Shown: positions 882 to 6,281 of the stretch, piece after piece
Position numbering within the stretch: position 1 is the stretch's first letter
Layout: each line of letters opens with the position of its first letter
Source of the DNA: Streptosporangium sandarakinum
GTDB taxonomy: Bacteria; Actinomycetota; Actinomycetes; Streptosporangiales; Streptosporangiaceae
Length of the DNA: 64,000 nucleotides
Assembly (NCBI RefSeq): GCF_013409935.1
Contig: NZ_JACCCO010000002.1
Span: 1-64,000 of the forward strand
Reading direction: 5' to 3'
Program-made: the position numbers and the translations under genes
The notes under the pieces: generated by a model
What the model was told of the DNA's origin: nothing
The model's database searches: none
Seen by the model: the letters and a program-made list of their open reading frames with translations, nothing else

Positions 882-2075
882 CTACCGCCGGACGTACTCC
901 CGGATGGCCAGGGTGGCGGCCAGGAGGTACGGGCCGAGCAGCAGGGCCGCGCACAGCAGCGCGTACCAGAACCGCGGGCTGAGCGGTCCGAGCAGCAGCC
1001 CCTCGGCCGCCCAGGCCAGCACGGTCACCGCGACGGGGGCCACGAAGAAGACGAACCAGGCCAGCACCACGGCGAACCCGGCCAGCCACACCCACCGGAA
1101 CCACCGCCCGGCCCGCACGTCGGCGGGAGCGGCCGAGTCCAGCTCCGCGGCCTGCGCCGGGGTGAGCCCGCCGAACGCGCGCCGCAGCAGCAGCGTCTTG
1201 ACCCGCCACAGGTCGCGGCAGCCGAGCGCGTTGACCAGCACCCCGTACAGGTCGGTGCGCAGGAAGACCATGCACTGCCACAGCAGGCCCGCCAGCTTCA
1301 CGAACACCCAGGTCGAGAGCGTCGCGTCCACCACGGGGTCCGGCGACCACGCTCCCTGCCGGATCAGCAGACGGGCGCCCAGCAGCAGGCTGAGCAGGAC
1401 CACGTCCACCGCCATCCCGCCGAGCAGCGGCCCGTAGCGGCGACGGCGCGGCACCGTCCAGATCTGGGAGAGATCGGTCTCCAGGACGAGCAGCATCATC
1501 CGCCGGTCCACCCCGAACCGGGACTCGACACCGATCGCCCGGGCGGCGAGCCAGTGCCCGCACTCGTGCAGAAACGTCGAGACCAGGACGAACGGCATGA
1601 GCAGCAGCGCGCTCAGCCCGATGTCGTCGAGCAGGAACGCGTCCCGGGCCGGGTCCGGGAAAAGGGACGGCGAGACGACGAAGACGGCCAGGCAGAGCAG
1701 TGCGAGGACGGCGTAGCAGGCCCAGGCCACCGGCCCGAAGAAGGGGCGGGCCACGCGCCGGCTCACCCCCGCCATCCAGCGCCGCATCTGGATGGGCGCG
1801 GTGCGCACGGCCCGGCGTTCCATATCGGGCCGGTCGTCGACGAATCCCAGTTCGGCGAGGGTCGCCACGAACGACGGCATGTCCACGGGCTCACCGGCGA
1901 ACGCCTCGGCCTCGGCCGCGGCCTCCTCCTCGGTCGCGCCGCGCAGCAGCGCCGAGATCACCACTCCGCCCACGGCGGGCATGGACACGAAGGTGCCGGT
2001 GGCGGGATCGCCGACCAGGACCTCGTCGCCCTCCTCGACCACGCTGAGCGGACGCAGCTGGACCGTGCCGCTCAT
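882..2075 (-). CDS. PqqD-domain M50 site-2-type membrane metalloprotease (RiPP maturation/export)
   Basis: This 397-residue membrane protein probably cleaves or exports the modified peptide encoded upstream (inference). Residues of about 1-90 form a PqqD-like winged helix, the leader-peptide recognition fold of many RiPP enzymes. Hydrophobic helices follow, with the zinc motif HECGH at about 170-174 inside FLHECGHWLAARAIGV. The second metal-ligand motif RTDLYGVL lies near 273-280. This arrangement is typical of 'putative peptide zinc metalloprotease' M50 proteins such as YydH. I chose ATG 2075 because it lies 4 nt after the stop of the E1-like gene and starts directly on the PqqD domain; the longer frame from 2120 begins inside the upstream gene. 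It is the last gene of a three-gene minus-strand operon. The family is clear but the role is inferred from context. Confidence 0.85.
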   Translation of the reverse strand: MSGTVQLRPLSVVEEGDEVLVGDPATGTFVSMPAVGGVVISALLRGATEEEAAAEAEAFAGEPVDMPSFVATLAELGFVDDRPDMERRAVRTAPIQMRRWMAGVSRRVARPFFGPVAWACYAVLALLCLAVFVVSPSLFPDPARDAFLLDDIGLSALLLMPFVLVSTFLHECGHWLAARAIGVESRFGVDRRMMLLVLETDLSQIWTVPRRRRYGPLLGGMAVDVVLLSLLLGARLLIRQGAWSPDPVVDATLSTWVFVKLAGLLWQCMVFLRTDLYGVLVNALGCRDLWRVKTLLLRRAFGGLTPAQAAELDSAAPADVRAGRWFRWVWLAGFAVVLAWFVFFVAPVAVTVLAWAAEGLLLGPLSPRFWYALLCAALLLGPYLLAATLAIREYVRR

Positions 2076-2079
2076 CGGC

Positions 2080-3168
2080 TCACCGCCGGGCCAGCGCGCA
2101 CGCCGGGCAGTCGGGGTCACGGGGGAACGGTTGCCACACCGGGACGAGCCCGTTGAGCAGGTCGATGACGACCCGGGACCCGGCCGCGCGCGGCTGCTCG
2201 ACGCCGGTCAGGTAGCGCATGGCCTCGTAGGCGACCAGCGACCCGACCTGCATCGCCATCGGCCCGGTGAGGCCGTTGGCGAGCCGCAGCCCGCGGGTGA
2301 GCCGCTGGGCGACCGCCGCGGTCGTGCGCTCCCGCGGATCGGGGAGGTCGGACTCGTCGCAGCGCAGGCAGGCGCTCACGCCCGGGTCGACGGAGAAGTA
2401 GATGAGCTGGGTGCGGGTCATCCCGCCGGCGACCCAGGGGACGCCCGCGCGCAGCGCCGCCTCGTTGACCCACAGGTTCGCGTCCGGATCGCCGTCGAGG
2501 CCGCCGGCGATCAGGTGGACGTCCTCGGTGAGGTCCTTGAGGTCGTCCGGGCCGGAGATCCACCGGTCCACGGCGCGGACCTCGATGCCCGGGTCGTACT
2601 CGCGCACCCATTCGGCGGCGCGGTCCACCTTCGACCGGCCGACGTCGGCGTGCCGGTAGAGGAACTGGCGGGCGAAGTTGCGCGGAGCGATGTCGTCGCG
2701 GTCCACCAGTGTCAGCGCGCCGACGCCGAGCCCGGCCAGGCACTGCACGAGGGACGAGCCGCCGCCGCCCGCGCCGAGCACGAGGACGTGGGAGTCTCGC
2801 AGCCGCCGGACGAACTCCGCCCGCGACCTGCCGAGCCGGGCGAAGACCCCGAAGAACGTCAGGTTGGAGAAGTGCCGCTCGTCGGCGTCCGGGTCGCCCA
2901 GCAGGCGTTCGGCGGCGTCCTCGACCAGGCCGAGGGAGTCGAGCCCGGCGAGACCGTCGCGGACGTCGTCTTCCGTGACGGGTACGCCTCGCGCGCTCAG
3001 CGCCGCGCTCAGTTCCTCCGCCGTGGCCGGCCCGCGGGCCAGCTCGTCGAGGAGCGCCGCGATCCGGCCGTCCGGATCGGCCAGCGTGTACGCCTCGCGC
3101 GGGTCGTGGACCACCACCAGCTCGTCACCGAGAGACTCCCAGGCGCACTCTTTCAACATCACCTGCAT
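2080..3168 (-). CDS. E1/ThiF-like adenylyltransferase with N-terminal RRE (RiPP-modifying)
   Basis: The 362-residue protein probably binds the tiny upstream peptide and activates one of its carboxylates as an acyl-adenylate, as MccB and PaaA do in the microcin C and pantocin pathways. Residues of about 1-90 look like a PqqD-type winged-helix leader-binding domain. The ThiF/MoeB/UBA E1 fold follows: nucleotide loop GAGGGG near 132-137, VDRDDI near 155-160, the Arg of NFARQ, the Lys of GRSK near 177-180, and an Asp in AGGLDGD. Two CxxC pairs (C267/C270 and C354/C357) should form the structural zinc site. It has no YcaO partner and no radical-SAM partner. It lies 82 nt after the precursor, behind a hairpin, and 4 nt before the protease gene. 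The peptide product is unknown. Confidence 0.85.
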   Translation of the reverse strand: MQVMLKECAWESLGDELVVVHDPREAYTLADPDGRIAALLDELARGPATAEELSAALSARGVPVTEDDVRDGLAGLDSLGLVEDAAERLLGDPDADERHFSNLTFFGVFARLGRSRAEFVRRLRDSHVLVLGAGGGGSSLVQCLAGLGVGALTLVDRDDIAPRNFARQFLYRHADVGRSKVDRAAEWVREYDPGIEVRAVDRWISGPDDLKDLTEDVHLIAGGLDGDPDANLWVNEAALRAGVPWVAGGMTRTQLIYFSVDPGVSACLRCDESDLPDPRERTTAAVAQRLTRGLRLANGLTGPMAMQVGSLVAYEAMRYLTGVEQPRAAGSRVVIDLLNGLVPVWQPFPRDPDCPACALARR

Positions 3169-3200
3169 CGCTCATCCGCATCGCTCGTCGGGAGGGAGAG

Positions 3201-3232
3201 GGCCGGGAGGCGGCCAGAGCCGCCTCCCGGCC
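3201..3232 (-). terminator. Strong hairpin between precursor and E1 gene (partial terminator or processing site)
   Basis: A perfect 14-bp stem (GGCCGGGAGGCGGC with its complement) closes a 4-nt loop. It lies 17 nt after the precursor stop and 32 nt before the E1 start, and no U-tract follows. Hairpins at this spot in peptide operons commonly let the precursor be made in excess over its enzymes. The structure is seen; the function is inferred. Confidence 0.7.
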
Positions 3233-3249
3233 TACTGAGAGGCGGTGCC

Positions 3250-3306
3250 TCAGGTCATGAACTGGGTCGCCTTGACGGCCTCCACCTTGCGAACCTCGAT
3301 CTTCAC
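3250..3306 (-). CDS. Candidate RiPP precursor peptide, 18 residues
   Basis: A GTG at 3306 encodes MKIEVRKVEAVKATQFMT, then TGA. An exact AAGGAGG lies 8 nt upstream, the best ribosome site in this part of the window, and it strongly favours this short start over the in-frame TTG at 3342 (30 residues, poorly spaced SD) or GTG at 3315. The peptide has a charged, amphipathic first half (KIEVRKVEAVK) and a polar tail (ATQFMT). It has no Cys, and Thr is its only hydroxyl residue, so lanthionine or azole chemistry is unlikely. Glu side chains or the C-terminal carboxylate are the natural targets for the downstream E1-like enzyme. It is too short for ordinary gene callers. The RBS, the following hairpin and two leader-binding-domain neighbours support it. 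I know no named family for it. Confidence 0.75.
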   Translation of the reverse strand: MKIEVRKVEAVKATQFMT

Positions 3307-3314
3307 CTTGTCCA

Positions 3315-3321
3315 CCTCCTT
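3315..3321 (-). promoter_or_regulatory. Consensus Shine-Dalgarno deciding the precursor start
   Basis: AAGGAGG, fully complementary to the 16S rRNA tail, sits 8 nt before GTG 3306. It lies inside the coding frame of any longer start, which argues for the 18-residue peptide. Confidence 0.8.
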
Positions 3322-3419
3322 CTTTCCGATGTCCTTGATCAAGGTCCTCCCTTCGCCCACAGAAACCGCATATGGTCGCCATAGAAGGGACAGAACCGCT
3401 GATCGTTCGGGGAGACGAA

Positions 3420-6281
3420 GTGGACTTCGCGGTCCTCGGACCGGTCCGGGCCGCCGACGCCGGGCAGCCGATCCGGCTGGCTTCCAAGGCTCGTACGGTG
3501 CTCGGCGTCTTCCTGCTCCATCCGAACACCGTCCTGTCCAGGGACCGGCTGATCACCTCGGTGTGGGACGACCCGCCCCGGTCCGCCCTGCCGAACCTCC
3601 AGACGTACCTGACCGCGCTGCGCCGCGCCGCGATCGAGGTCGAGACCGTGCCGTACGGCTACCGCCTGTGTCTGGGCCCCGACCGGCTCGATCTGCTCGC
3701 CTTCGACGAGGCCGTACGGCAGGCCCGGCTGGAGGCGGCGCGCGGCGACGCCGCCACGGCGAACCGGCTGTTCACGGAGGCGCTGGCGCTGTGGCGCGGC
3801 CGGCCGGCAGAGGACGTACCGCTGGCCGCGGCGATGCAGGCGCGCGTCGCCGAGCTGGAGGAGCGCCGGGAGAACGCCCGGCTCGGCTGGATCGACGTGC
3901 GCCTGCGGCTCGGCCTGCACGACGAGCTCGTCGGTGAGCTGACGCCGCTGGTGGAGGCCGCGCCGCTCAACGAACGCCTGTGGCACCGGCTCATGCTGGC
4001 GCTGCACCGGGCGGGCCGCCGCGCCGAGGCGCTGGAGGCGTACCGGCGGGCCCGCTCGACGCTCGTCGCCGAGCTGGGCGTGGAACCCTCCCAGGAACTA
4101 CGCGGCCTGCAGGCGGCGATCCTCGACGACGCCCCCGTCCCGCCCCCCGCGCTGGAGACGGTCCGGGAACCCGTCTGGACGGGGATCTGCCTGCTCCCGG
4201 CCGACATCGCCGACTTCTCCGGCCGCGAGGGCGAGACCCGCGACCTGGTCGCCGCGCTGGACGGCACCGGGACGGCACCGGTGATCGTGACGTTGTCGGG
4301 GCCGCCCGGGGTCGGGAAGAGCACGCTGGCGGTCCATGTCGCGCATCTGGTGCGGAAGCGGTATCCCGACGGGCAGCTGTTCGTCCGGCTGTGCGACGCC
4401 TCGGCGTCGCCCCGCGACCCGTCCGACGCGCTAGCGGAGCTGCTGCGGACGCTCGGCGTGGACTCCGCCGGCATGCCCTCCTCCGTCGGGGAGCGGGCGG
4501 CGATGTACCGGGCCAAGGTCGCCGACCGGGCGGTTCTCCTGCTGCTGGACGACGCGGCCGGCGAGGCCCAGGTGGAACCGCTGATCCCCGGGACCCCCGG
4601 ATCGGCGGTCCTCGTCACCTCCCGTGGGCCGCTGCCCGCGCTGCCCGGCGCGATCGCGTACCCGCTGGACGTGCCGCCGCCCGCCGACGCCCGCGATCTG
4701 CTCGCCGGCGTGGCCGGGGCAAGCCGGGTGGCGAGCGACCCCGAATCGGCGGAGGCGATCATAGGCGCCTGCGGGCGGTTGCCCCTCGCGCTGCGCATCG
4801 CCGGAGCGCGGCTGGTGACCCGGCCGGCCTGGCCGCTGGCCGAGCTGGCGCGGCGGCTCGCCGACGCCTCGGCGCTGAACGAACTGCGTGCGGGCCACCT
4901 GGACGTCCGCGCCACGTTCGAGGCGAGCTACGCGGCGCTGTCGGCGCCCGCACGGCACGCGTTCCGGCTGCTCGGGTCGGTGGCCGCCGACGGCGTGGCC
5001 GCCTGGACGGTGGCCGCGCTGGCGGGCACGAGCACGCACGAGGTGGACGGCCCCCTGGAGGAGCTGGCCGCCGCCGGGCTGGTCACCGCCGGTGACGCCG
5101 ACGCCGCGGCCGAACCCCGCTACCGCATGCACGACCTGCTGCGCGGCTTCGCCGCCGAGCTGTTCGCCGCCGAGGAGAACGGGCGGAGCCGGGCGGCGGC
5201 GCTGCGCCGGGTCGCCGCCACGGCCCGGGACCACGCCGCCGCCGCCGCTCGCGAACTGCCCCTCGCCTTCGCCCCGCCGCCGCCCGGCGTCCCGGACCGG
5301 ACGCCGCCCTGCCCGGAGGGCGGTGCCTGGCTGGCGGCGGAGCGCGCCGTGCTCGTCGCCGTGGCCGAGACCGCCGCCCGCGCCGGGCTGGTACGCGAGG
5401 CGGCCGAACTCGCCTACGCGCTGGCGCCGTTCCTGATCGTGCGCGGTTTCCACGACGACGCCGTCCGCGTGCTGGGGACGGCCTCCGGCGCCGCCGCGGC
5501 GGCGGGGGACGTCACCGCCGAGACGCACCTGCGGCTGGTGCGCGCCGATGTCGAGGTGGACCGCATACGCGCTCGCGGGGTCGCCGACGAGTTCCGCCAT
5601 CTGCTCGGCCGCTGCTCACGGGACGGGGATCGGCACGCCGCCGCGTACGCGTTGCTCGGGGTCGCCGCCACCCTGGAGACGGACCTGGGGTCCGCGCTCG
5701 CCACCGCCACCCTGGCCGCCGGGCGGTTCGACGCGCTGGGCGACCCGCACGGCCTGCTGAGCGCGTGGACCGAGATCGCCGCGGTCCAGTTCTACCTGGG
5801 CCGCTACGATGACGCCGCGGCGACCTGCCGCCGGGCCCTCGCCCACGCCGAGGGGCACAGCGCCGTCCACCGGGCCCGCTTCCTGCGCACGCTCGGCGTC
5901 GCCCGCTACGAGACGGGCCACGTCGAGGAGGCGATCGGCCACTACCGGGCCTGCCTGGACCTCTGCCGGGACCTGCGGTGGGCCACCGGGGAACGGCTGG
6001 CGCTGCGCCGGCTGGCCCAGGCCGAGGCCGCGCTGGGCCGCCATGACACCGCCATCGGCATTCTCGCCCAGTGCGCGGAGATGTACGTCAACGCCGGAGA
6101 CACCCAGGGAGAGGCGCTGATCGCCTACACGCTGGGCGAGATCAGCCGGTGGCGGGGCGACGAGCGGGCCGCGCTGGCCCACTTCACCACCTGCCTCCAC
6201 CGGCTCGACCCGCTCAACGAACCCGTCTGGTCCGCCCGCACCCGCGACCAGATCGCCCGCTCCCGGGCCGCCCTCGGCTGA
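3420..6281 (+). CDS. SARP-type regulator with NTPase and TPR domains (AfsR-like)
   Basis: This 953-residue activator has the AfsR layout. It begins with an OmpR-type winged helix (VDFAVLGPVRA to about residue 85), then a BTAD domain ending near VAELGVEPSQELRGLQ, an NB-ARC/STAND NTPase with Walker A GPPGVGKST near residue 293 and LLLLDDA as Walker B, and TPR-like helical repeats at the C-terminus. I start it at GTG 3420 because GGGGAG lies just upstream and the fold begins there; ATG 3372 has no RBS. It diverges from the 18-residue precursor gene with 113 nt between. SARPs bind 11-bp-period heptamer repeats. I find such repeats upstream of several biosynthetic genes from 22 kb onward, but not clearly in this intergenic region, so its regulon may be the large cluster, the peptide operon or both. 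Confidence 0.9.
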   Translation: MDFAVLGPVRAADAGQPIRLASKARTVLGVFLLHPNTVLSRDRLITSVWDDPPRSALPNLQTYLTALRRAAIEVETVPYGYRLCLGPDRLDLLAFDEAVRQARLEAARGDAATANRLFTEALALWRGRPAEDVPLAAAMQARVAELEERRENARLGWIDVRLRLGLHDELVGELTPLVEAAPLNERLWHRLMLALHRAGRRAEALEAYRRARSTLVAELGVEPSQELRGLQAAILDDAPVPPPALETVREPVWTGICLLPADIADFSGREGETRDLVAALDGTGTAPVIVTLSGPPGVGKSTLAVHVAHLVRKRYPDGQLFVRLCDASASPRDPSDALAELLRTLGVDSAGMPSSVGERAAMYRAKVADRAVLLLLDDAAGEAQVEPLIPGTPGSAVLVTSRGPLPALPGAIAYPLDVPPPADARDLLAGVAGASRVASDPESAEAIIGACGRLPLALRIAGARLVTRPAWPLAELARRLADASALNELRAGHLDVRATFEASYAALSAPARHAFRLLGSVAADGVAAWTVAALAGTSTHEVDGPLEELAAAGLVTAGDADAAAEPRYRMHDLLRGFAAELFAAEENGRSRAAALRRVAATARDHAAAAARELPLAFAPPPPGVPDRTPPCPEGGAWLAAERAVLVAVAETAARAGLVREAAELAYALAPFLIVRGFHDDAVRVLGTASGAAAAAGDVTAETHLRLVRADVEVDRIRARGVADEFRHLLGRCSRDGDRHAAAYALLGVAATLETDLGSALATATLAAGRFDALGDPHGLLSAWTEIAAVQFYLGRYDDAAATCRRALAHAEGHSAVHRARFLRTLGVARYETGHVEEAIGHYRACLDLCRDLRWATGERLALRRLAQAEAALGRHDTAIGILAQCAEMYVNAGDTQGEALIAYTLGEISRWRGDERAALAHFTTCLHRLDPLNEPVWSARTRDQIARSRAALG

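Follow-up and report, generated by a model that had tools for sequence, protein, structure and literature searches.

Among the described systems closest to the locus reported here, microcin C is made from a very short precursor, MccA, and its gene cluster contains a dedicated exporter. Pearlin clusters encode a tRNA-dependent peptide ligase (PEARL), and in epipeptide clusters a radical SAM epimerase is found together with an M50 protease. Microcin C, pantocin A, GRC, and enterofaecin are listed as types of ThiF-like ribosomally synthesized and post-translationally modified peptides (RiPPs), and the 21-residue enterofaecin precursor EnfA has a (V/I)RKA leader motif that is reported to be important (PMC12250964). 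IndF forms an indolylamide ring, and 27,400 fusions of a RiPP recognition element (RRE) with ThiF have been counted (PMC12150305). M50 proteases occur in pearlin and epipeptide pathways; one of them, EpeP, is thought to cleave and export and thus provides a precedent (PMC10885120). Here, we describe a unit of three minus-strand genes in a 64,000-bp stretch of Streptosporangium sandarakinum (NCBI RefSeq assembly GCF_013409935.1, contig NZ_JACCCO010000002.1, positions 1 to 64,000; below, the window). It is probably a minimal ThiF-like RiPP unit, with an E1-type enzyme modifying the C-terminus of the precursor and an M50-type protease cleaving it. The unit itself is well supported; its chemistry we infer.

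An earlier note on this DNA had proposed a precursor, an E1, and an M50 gene on the minus strand, and all three were located there. The precursor gene (positions 3250..3306, minus strand) starts with GTG at 3306 and has 18 codons and a stop codon at 3250–3252; its product, MKIEVRKVEAVKATQFMT, consists of the leader MKIEVRKVEAVKAT and the tail QFMT. The Shine-Dalgarno sequence claimed there is AAGGAGG (3315..3321, minus strand), which ends 8 nt ahead of the GTG, and a loosely defined sequence of this kind precedes 46 of the 47 precursor genes examined. In a search of 16 genomes of the genus, the window's own included, the E1 was found at 91–98% identity in four others, and the identical 18-residue peptide lies beside it in 4/4 of these genus-mates, starting with ATG in three and with GTG in one. 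In the closest relatives (L013–L020; L-numbers are labels of loci), longer in-frame GTG or TTG starts (21 and 29–31 amino acids) are present upstream, not all of them in each. Because ATG stands directly at M-K-I-E-V in L021, L022, L024, and others, the 18-codon reading of the sequence is favored as the most likely one for the window, and a 21- or 30-codon form may be an alternative. The size that had seemed distinctive is short indeed, but EnfA, with its 21 residues, comes close (PMC12250964). None of ten precursors tried matched an NCBIfam model, and seven tried against Pfam gave nothing above chance-level matches.

A scan of genome contigs yielded 66 E1 loci, and the first open reading frame (ORF) per locus was taken for the motif counts. 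In 59/66 loci, the leader motif occurs in a small ORF within 3.2 kb of the E1 gene, and 50/66 have an M50 gene within the same distance. The expectation that homologous E1–M50 pairs should be accompanied by short ORFs in which the leader is conserved and the tail varies was borne out in 49 of these 50 loci. Six other loci lacking a motif ORF (L063, L066, L070, L075, L076, and L078) have no called M50 gene either. The motif pattern had no matches over 640 kb of farther flank and was found in 4 of 198 mononucleotide-shuffled windows, which rules out a chance ORF. Since the patterns were drawn up after the peptides were known, the count tests the place of the ORF and is not an independent guess. 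Genes were called by a GC-based script, and some E1 genes were missed (L021, L026).

The loci fall into groups, for which the letters A–D were coined in this analysis. Group A, which includes the window (L013–L043, 31 loci), has precursors of 18–20 residues. In group B, with E1s about 30–34% identical, precursors comprise 26–37 residues with the motif ...R(K)LEK(I/V)ETT followed by a tail, and all 17 distinct tails tallied end with Gly. Thus, longer precursors, which the earlier note had counted against its proposal, do lie beside the more distant E1–M50 pairs (26–37 residues), but they carry the same kind of motif. Group C, from Streptomyces and Actinacidiphila, is characterized by ...IRPLDKKETTGDSNSNGT and similar peptides encoded on the strand opposite to E1, mostly ahead of an M14-type gene. 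The family holds additional E1s accompanied by ...IRLLDKIETT... peptides.

Across all loci collected and the window, group A has 19 distinct peptides, encoded by 31 different DNA versions. The 14-residue leader is retained in these, and the tail of 4–6 residues after KAT changes (e.g., QFMT, QNPAT, GFAV, VNGPH, VKDA). Position 10 of the leader is A, S, P, or D, and positions 2, 4, and 6 exchange K/R for E, or K for R. The strict pattern behind the 19-peptide set demanded residues 1, 3, 8, 9, 12, 13, and 14 (I3, V8, E9, K12, A13, and T14 among them), so the invariance of these columns and the synonymous share are partly built in; a looser pattern detects peptides of the group A type in 31/31 group A loci. 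Among leader codon differences, counted over pairs that are not independent, 1012 of 2136 are synonymous, as compared with 24% of single-base neighbors. In the same non-independent pairs, differences at codon positions 3:1:2 are distributed as 1349:1040:298 in leaders and 299:454:402 in tails of equal length. No tail residue is common to all peptides. Attempts to explain the K2/E4 versus E2/K4 leader swap by E1 alignment columns were abandoned, as discriminating columns exist but are confounded by descent.

The distance from the motif end to the C-terminus is nearly fixed at 11.3 residues (sd 1.5, range 9–14; 42 peptides), while the N-terminal part varies with sd 6.3, in a calculation that counts related peptides as independent and includes L018 with a doubtful 42-residue upstream start that inflates the N-terminal spread. 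It is this difference in spread that leads us to read the C-terminus as the site of action of the E1.

The E1 gene (2080..3168, minus strand), separated from the M50 gene by four bases, encodes a ThiF-like adenylyltransferase of 362 amino acids (Pfam ThiF, E = 2e-48). The leader-binding domain previously suggested at its N-terminus is recovered as an RRE both by fold and by profile, and we consider it well supported. In the alignment of relatives, GxGGxG, R167, K180, D225, and four Cys are invariant; in the profile alignment, R167, K180, D225, and the Cys align with Arg, Lys, Asp, and Cys of MccB. Arg, Lys, and Asp of this kind are reported to be essential in EnfB (PMC12250964), a protein outside our alignment. 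The AlphaFold model of the E1 was built as an artificial read-through chain of precursor, linker, and E1, which are in frame by chance (mean predicted local distance difference test score, pLDDT, 88.5; predicted template modeling score, pTM, 0.85). Precursor residues 1–10 have a mean pLDDT of 85 and form a strand at 5–10, and residues 14–44 fall below 50; the leader strand presumably lies on the RRE of the E1, in a model from which contacts are unreadable. Among the Foldseek matches listed, MccB comes first (363 columns, TM-score 0.83 by target), followed by PaaA, MoeB, and ThiF. The profile of 21 E1s detects MccB at 1e-46 over the E1 domain and PaaA at 3e-43 over both RRE and E1.

The second enzyme (882..2075, minus strand, 397 amino acids) is an M50-type membrane metalloprotease with an RRE-like N-terminus and the HExxH motif (HECGH) at residues 170–174. 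With 16.9 bits (E = 0.0042), it falls short of the Pfam M50 cut-off of 27.2 bits; the name is retained because this match is accompanied by long helices in the model and by conservation of HExxH, which is invariant across 37 aligned relatives. Three strands and three helices come first in the AlphaFold model (pLDDT 88.5, pTM 0.81). Among the matches that Foldseek lists for it, the best solved structures are lasso-peptide RREs with leaders: TbiB1 is matched over about 86 columns (E = 0.018, probability 1.0, TM-score 0.64 by target), and McbB and TigE score lower. As modeled, the N-terminus thus appears to resemble a lasso-peptide RRE, through a weaker fold match. For the PqqD-like start claimed for this protease, the model thus offers an RRE-like fold. 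Pfam PqqD gives weak matches, below the cut-off, in the relative L012 (0.0025 for E1 and 0.012 for M50), and none in the window's own proteins.

We propose that the leader binds the RRE of the E1 by beta-strand pairing, which would place the precursor C-terminus in the ATP site, and that the E1 would adenylate the C-terminal carboxylate. The acyl-adenylate would then be taken by a nucleophile, most likely an internal one, such as the Thr14 hydroxyl or the Lys12 amine, giving a ring of approximately 5–9 residues; an outside amine or a nucleotide may be the acceptor instead. The RRE of the M50 would take over the same leader, so that the membrane protease would cut near the junction between KAT and the tail, and it may export the product as well. 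Of the chemistries considered, activation of the C-terminus has the best support (near-fixed spacing, MccB-like fold, and no universal side chain).

Several observations weigh against this scheme. The C-termini of group A peptides (V, T, G, A, Q, and H) include no residue demanded in the way that Asn is in MccA, one relative, L072, carries Ile instead of Thr14, and Lys at position 12 is confined to group A. The fused chain favors intramolecular binding, and the partner strand of the leader is not seen in the model. The sequence profile reaches over the RRE in PaaA, not in MccB, and PaaA targets an internal Glu. As for the protease, its fold search gave no match at E 0.001 and no M50 protease among the 50 best Foldseek matches, and the RRE match was placed at the N-terminus from the order of strands and helices, the aligned range not being printed. 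On the genomic side, L046 is the sole E1–M50 pair of the 50 for which no precursor was found, and L035 from Streptomyces has a precursor, an E1, and two SARP-type regulators with no M50 called. An M14-type gene is located near the E1 in 8/66 loci, seven of which are without M50, and no transporter family occurs in more than 7 of 67 stretches (the 66 loci and the window).

Having an E1 with an N-terminal RRE and intact adenylation residues, adjoined by a short precursor with a conserved leader, the unit is best described as a variant of the ThiF-like RiPPs (MccB, PaaA, GrcB, EnfB, IndF) that is neither microcin C nor pantocin. The earlier note cited MccB and PaaA as precedents for E1-only chemistry; both are related, but the list was incomplete, as GrcB, EnfB, and IndF belong to it too (PMC12250964, PMC12150305). 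With microcin C7 (MccA/MccB) the unit shares a very short precursor, an E1 with an N-terminal peptide clamp or RRE, a similar fold across the entire E1, and the C-terminus as the probable target, but it differs in the conserved 14-residue leader and in the M50 partner with its RRE-like N-terminus. The Asn that ends MccA (PMC12150305) is, as previously stated, absent (0/16 group A tails). Pantocin A (PaaP/PaaA) is similar in its RRE–E1 enzyme, with the profile match running through RRE and E1; the unit lacks the Glu-Glu-Asn core with a follower by which pantocin is defined (PMC12250964), having only 4–6 residues after the leader, and adds the M50 partner.

The similarity to enterofaecin (EnfA/EnfB) includes a short precursor, VRKV in place of (V/I)RKA, probable C-terminal adenylation as in EnfB, and an ATP site with Arg, Lys, and Asp, whereas the WWIVI core and four transporters of that system contrast with the M50, the SARP-type regulator, and the lack of a shared aromatic core here (PMC12250964). 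GrcB and IndF are RRE–ThiF proteins too, and their reaction, adenylation of a carboxylate followed by ring closure, is the one proposed here; the ind cluster is minimal and includes a metalloprotease, although of the M16 rather than the M50 type; in contrast to both, our unit is actinobacterial, its tails have no conserved Cys or Trp, and no transporter family recurs with it in more than 7 of 67 stretches. Finally, a RiPP precursor is processed by a membrane M50 protease in the case of EpeP and TglG/TmoG (PMC10885120), but here the M50 starts with an RRE-like fold and has an E1 as its partner; EpeP and TglG were compared by description only.

The claim that no known family or protease pairing fits should be narrowed: word searches of a collection of open papers, at the level of listings, retrieved no description of this gene combination and none of the leader letters tried, but M50 proteases as such have been described for pearlins and epipeptides (PMC10885120). 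The accessible parts of two RRE surveys (PMC7470986, PMC12710340) make no mention of M50. Given the number of RRE–ThiF fusions counted in PMC12150305, the E1 of the window may sit undescribed in that network.

A large SARP/AfsR-type regulator (DNA-binding, BTAD, NB-ARC, and TPR domains; 3372..6281, plus strand) is transcribed divergently, 65 bases beyond the precursor start codon, and may turn the unit on. The three genes had been taken for the whole unit; the precursor, E1, and M50 do recur, but this fourth gene, which was overlooked along with a hairpin and a second unit, adjoins them in 26/31 group A loci (it is missing in L027, L033, L037, L040, and L043). In group B, a regulator of this type is found within 1.2 kb in 4/18 loci. 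Regulator identity averages 42% (34–67%) for E1 pairs at 60–75% identity and 37% between groups, hence position, to a greater degree than sequence, appears to link the regulator to the E1; over 30 loci, the identities of the two proteins correlate with r 0.74.

Clustering of genes from the 67 stretches revealed three widely recurrent families, E1 (57), M50 (51), and the regulator (35). They are followed by M14 (8/67) and five clusters at 7/67 each, whose positions shift between loci and in which one typed member each is an MFS transporter, an ABC ATPase, a LacI-type regulator, a PP2C phosphatase, and a short-chain dehydrogenase. No other gene occurs in more than 8/67 stretches; a search aimed at PEARL or radical SAM in the flanks was not made. 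The window starts at base 1 of the contig, and genes past that end are outside the sequence. A bigger cluster around the window was considered and dropped, as the gene at 1–672 is shared, among the 66 loci, only with the 98% relative L013.

Between the precursor and E1 genes, the window contains a 14-bp hairpin (3201..3232, minus strand; z −3.2 versus dinucleotide shuffles). All 18 loci chosen for the same comparison fold a long stem at this place, with z from −1.7 to −4.6. Against mononucleotide shuffles, z is negative in 46/46 foldable loci (−0.5 to −6.2; 47 were taken, the intergenic region of L043 being too short). Stems of at least 9 bp occur in 43/46 loci (L026, L027, and L030 have short ones) and in 39% of shuffles, so stem length alone is a weak indicator. 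In most folded relatives, the stems have unrelated sequences at the same place. No intrinsic terminator was found by pattern after the window precursor. The hairpin may serve as an attenuator or mRNA-end protector, and as such would hold enzyme expression under the level of the precursor.

The genome of S. sandarakinum has a second complete unit (L167, C1:2797000-2813000) comprising a divergently placed regulator, the precursor MEIKVKKVESVKATQNPAT, an E1 66% identical to that of the window, and an M50; charges at leader positions 2 and 4 are swapped relative to the window copy. Elsewhere in this genome (L168, C1:3150000-3166000), a third, distant M50 homolog has a TPR protein of 710 residues and a divergently placed SARP-type regulator as its neighbors; gene calling gave no E1 in this stretch.

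The unit was found in soil actinobacteria of the genera Streptosporangium, Nonomuraea, Microtetraspora, Sphaerimonospora, Actinomadura, and Streptomyces, with some copies on large linear plasmids. The M50 model has matches in 114/341 family genomes at 1e-20 and the broad E1 model in 146/341 at 1e-50, counts that include genes not belonging to such units; in a sample drawn from the class, E1 gave 20/394, with 14 of these being family members. The plasmid collection contains 20 records with an E1 at 60–80% identity, 19 from Streptomyces and one from Nonomuraea, the latter of 11.85 Mb and hence chromosome-sized. Four plasmid records were examined for annotation: their gene tables, which are incomplete, name the E1 a ThiF family adenylyltransferase and the protease a hypothetical protein, and contain no precursor. 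The gene order is changed, with the precursor behind the M50, in four plasmid records and in three Streptomyces loci of group A.

Two further branches were observed. In seven group C loci (L059, L062, L064, L065, L067, L069, and L073), the precursor opposite E1 is followed by a gene clustering with M14 zinc carboxypeptidases (assigned by Pfam on the L059 member only). Six of these, all but L064, have genes of the dihydrodipicolinate synthase (DHDPS) and semialdehyde dehydrogenase families further on, and five also an APH-like kinase, for which Pfam replaced the dropped label of aspartokinase. Such neighbors possibly reflect amino-acid building on a peptide. The loci L141–L147 and L159–L161 form a fourth branch, in which E1s are found with longer peptides, ...TIR(R/L)LDK(I/S)ETT..., with an often Ser/Asn-rich tail.

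Two other chemistries deserve consideration, and we regard each as rather improbable. Among solved relatives, PaaA is the one whose profile alignment covers the RRE as well as the E1, and the E1 might act as in pantocin, activating a Glu side chain in the conserved stretch (E9; in other groups E12), which would then be partly core. Indeed, E9 is retained in 31/31 group A loci, but none of the Glu residues is shared by all groups: Asn takes the place of E9 in L073, and group A has Lys at 12. In addition, just 4–6 residues follow KAT in group A, whereas the pantocin A precursor has a follower region (PMC12250964), and the near-fixed C-terminal spacing would be left unexplained. Alternatively, the peptide might be a scaffold to whose C-terminus the E1 couples an amino acid or another small molecule; the M50 (M14 in some relatives) would then, as a carboxypeptidase, release the coupled molecule and restore the peptide, like TglG/TmoG in pearlin pathways. 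M50 carboxypeptidases have a precedent (PMC10885120, PMC9303977), and both the M14 cluster genes near E1 (8/66 loci) and the DHDPS- and semialdehyde-dehydrogenase-family genes near the L059 precursor would suit this role. However, small-molecule enzymes do not recur widely in group A, and a scaffold should keep a fixed C-terminus, while group A tails vary.

A third proposal concerns the use of the product and is compatible with C-terminal activation followed by M50 cleavage: the product could be a peptide signal read by the adjoining TPR-bearing regulator in an actinobacterial pheromone loop. This is possible through the regulator link but not likely. In its favor, the regulator stays adjacent in most group A loci despite the changed gene order in Streptomyces, both units of the S. 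sandarakinum genome have one, tails differ between clades but are kept within them, and regulator and E1 identities correlate. On the other hand, adjacency is lost in 5/31 group A and 14/18 group B loci, regulator identity at comparable E1 divergence is little over that between groups, and large SARPs are common cluster activators. Moreover, AfsR is reported to respond to ATP and phosphorylation, and the accessible part of the source names no peptide ligand for it (PMC10936776). Least probable of all is the fullest version of such a loop, in which the tail of an 18–20-residue precursor is ring-closed by the ThiF-like E1 (giving a ring like that of autoinducing peptides by an entirely different enzyme), an RRE-guided M50 cuts and exports it, the TPR-bearing SARP reads it, and two charge-swapped copies (KIEVRK and EIKVKK) work insulated from each other in one cell.

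If the preferred reading, a C-terminus-modifying E1 with an M50 partner, is right, the unit would rank with the smallest RiPP systems that have a leader: two enzymes each apparently grip one 14-residue leader and leave a free tail of 4–6 residues. It makes testable both the selection of a C-terminus by an E1 and the use of an RRE by an M50 protease, and its tolerance for differing tails would suit peptide engineering.

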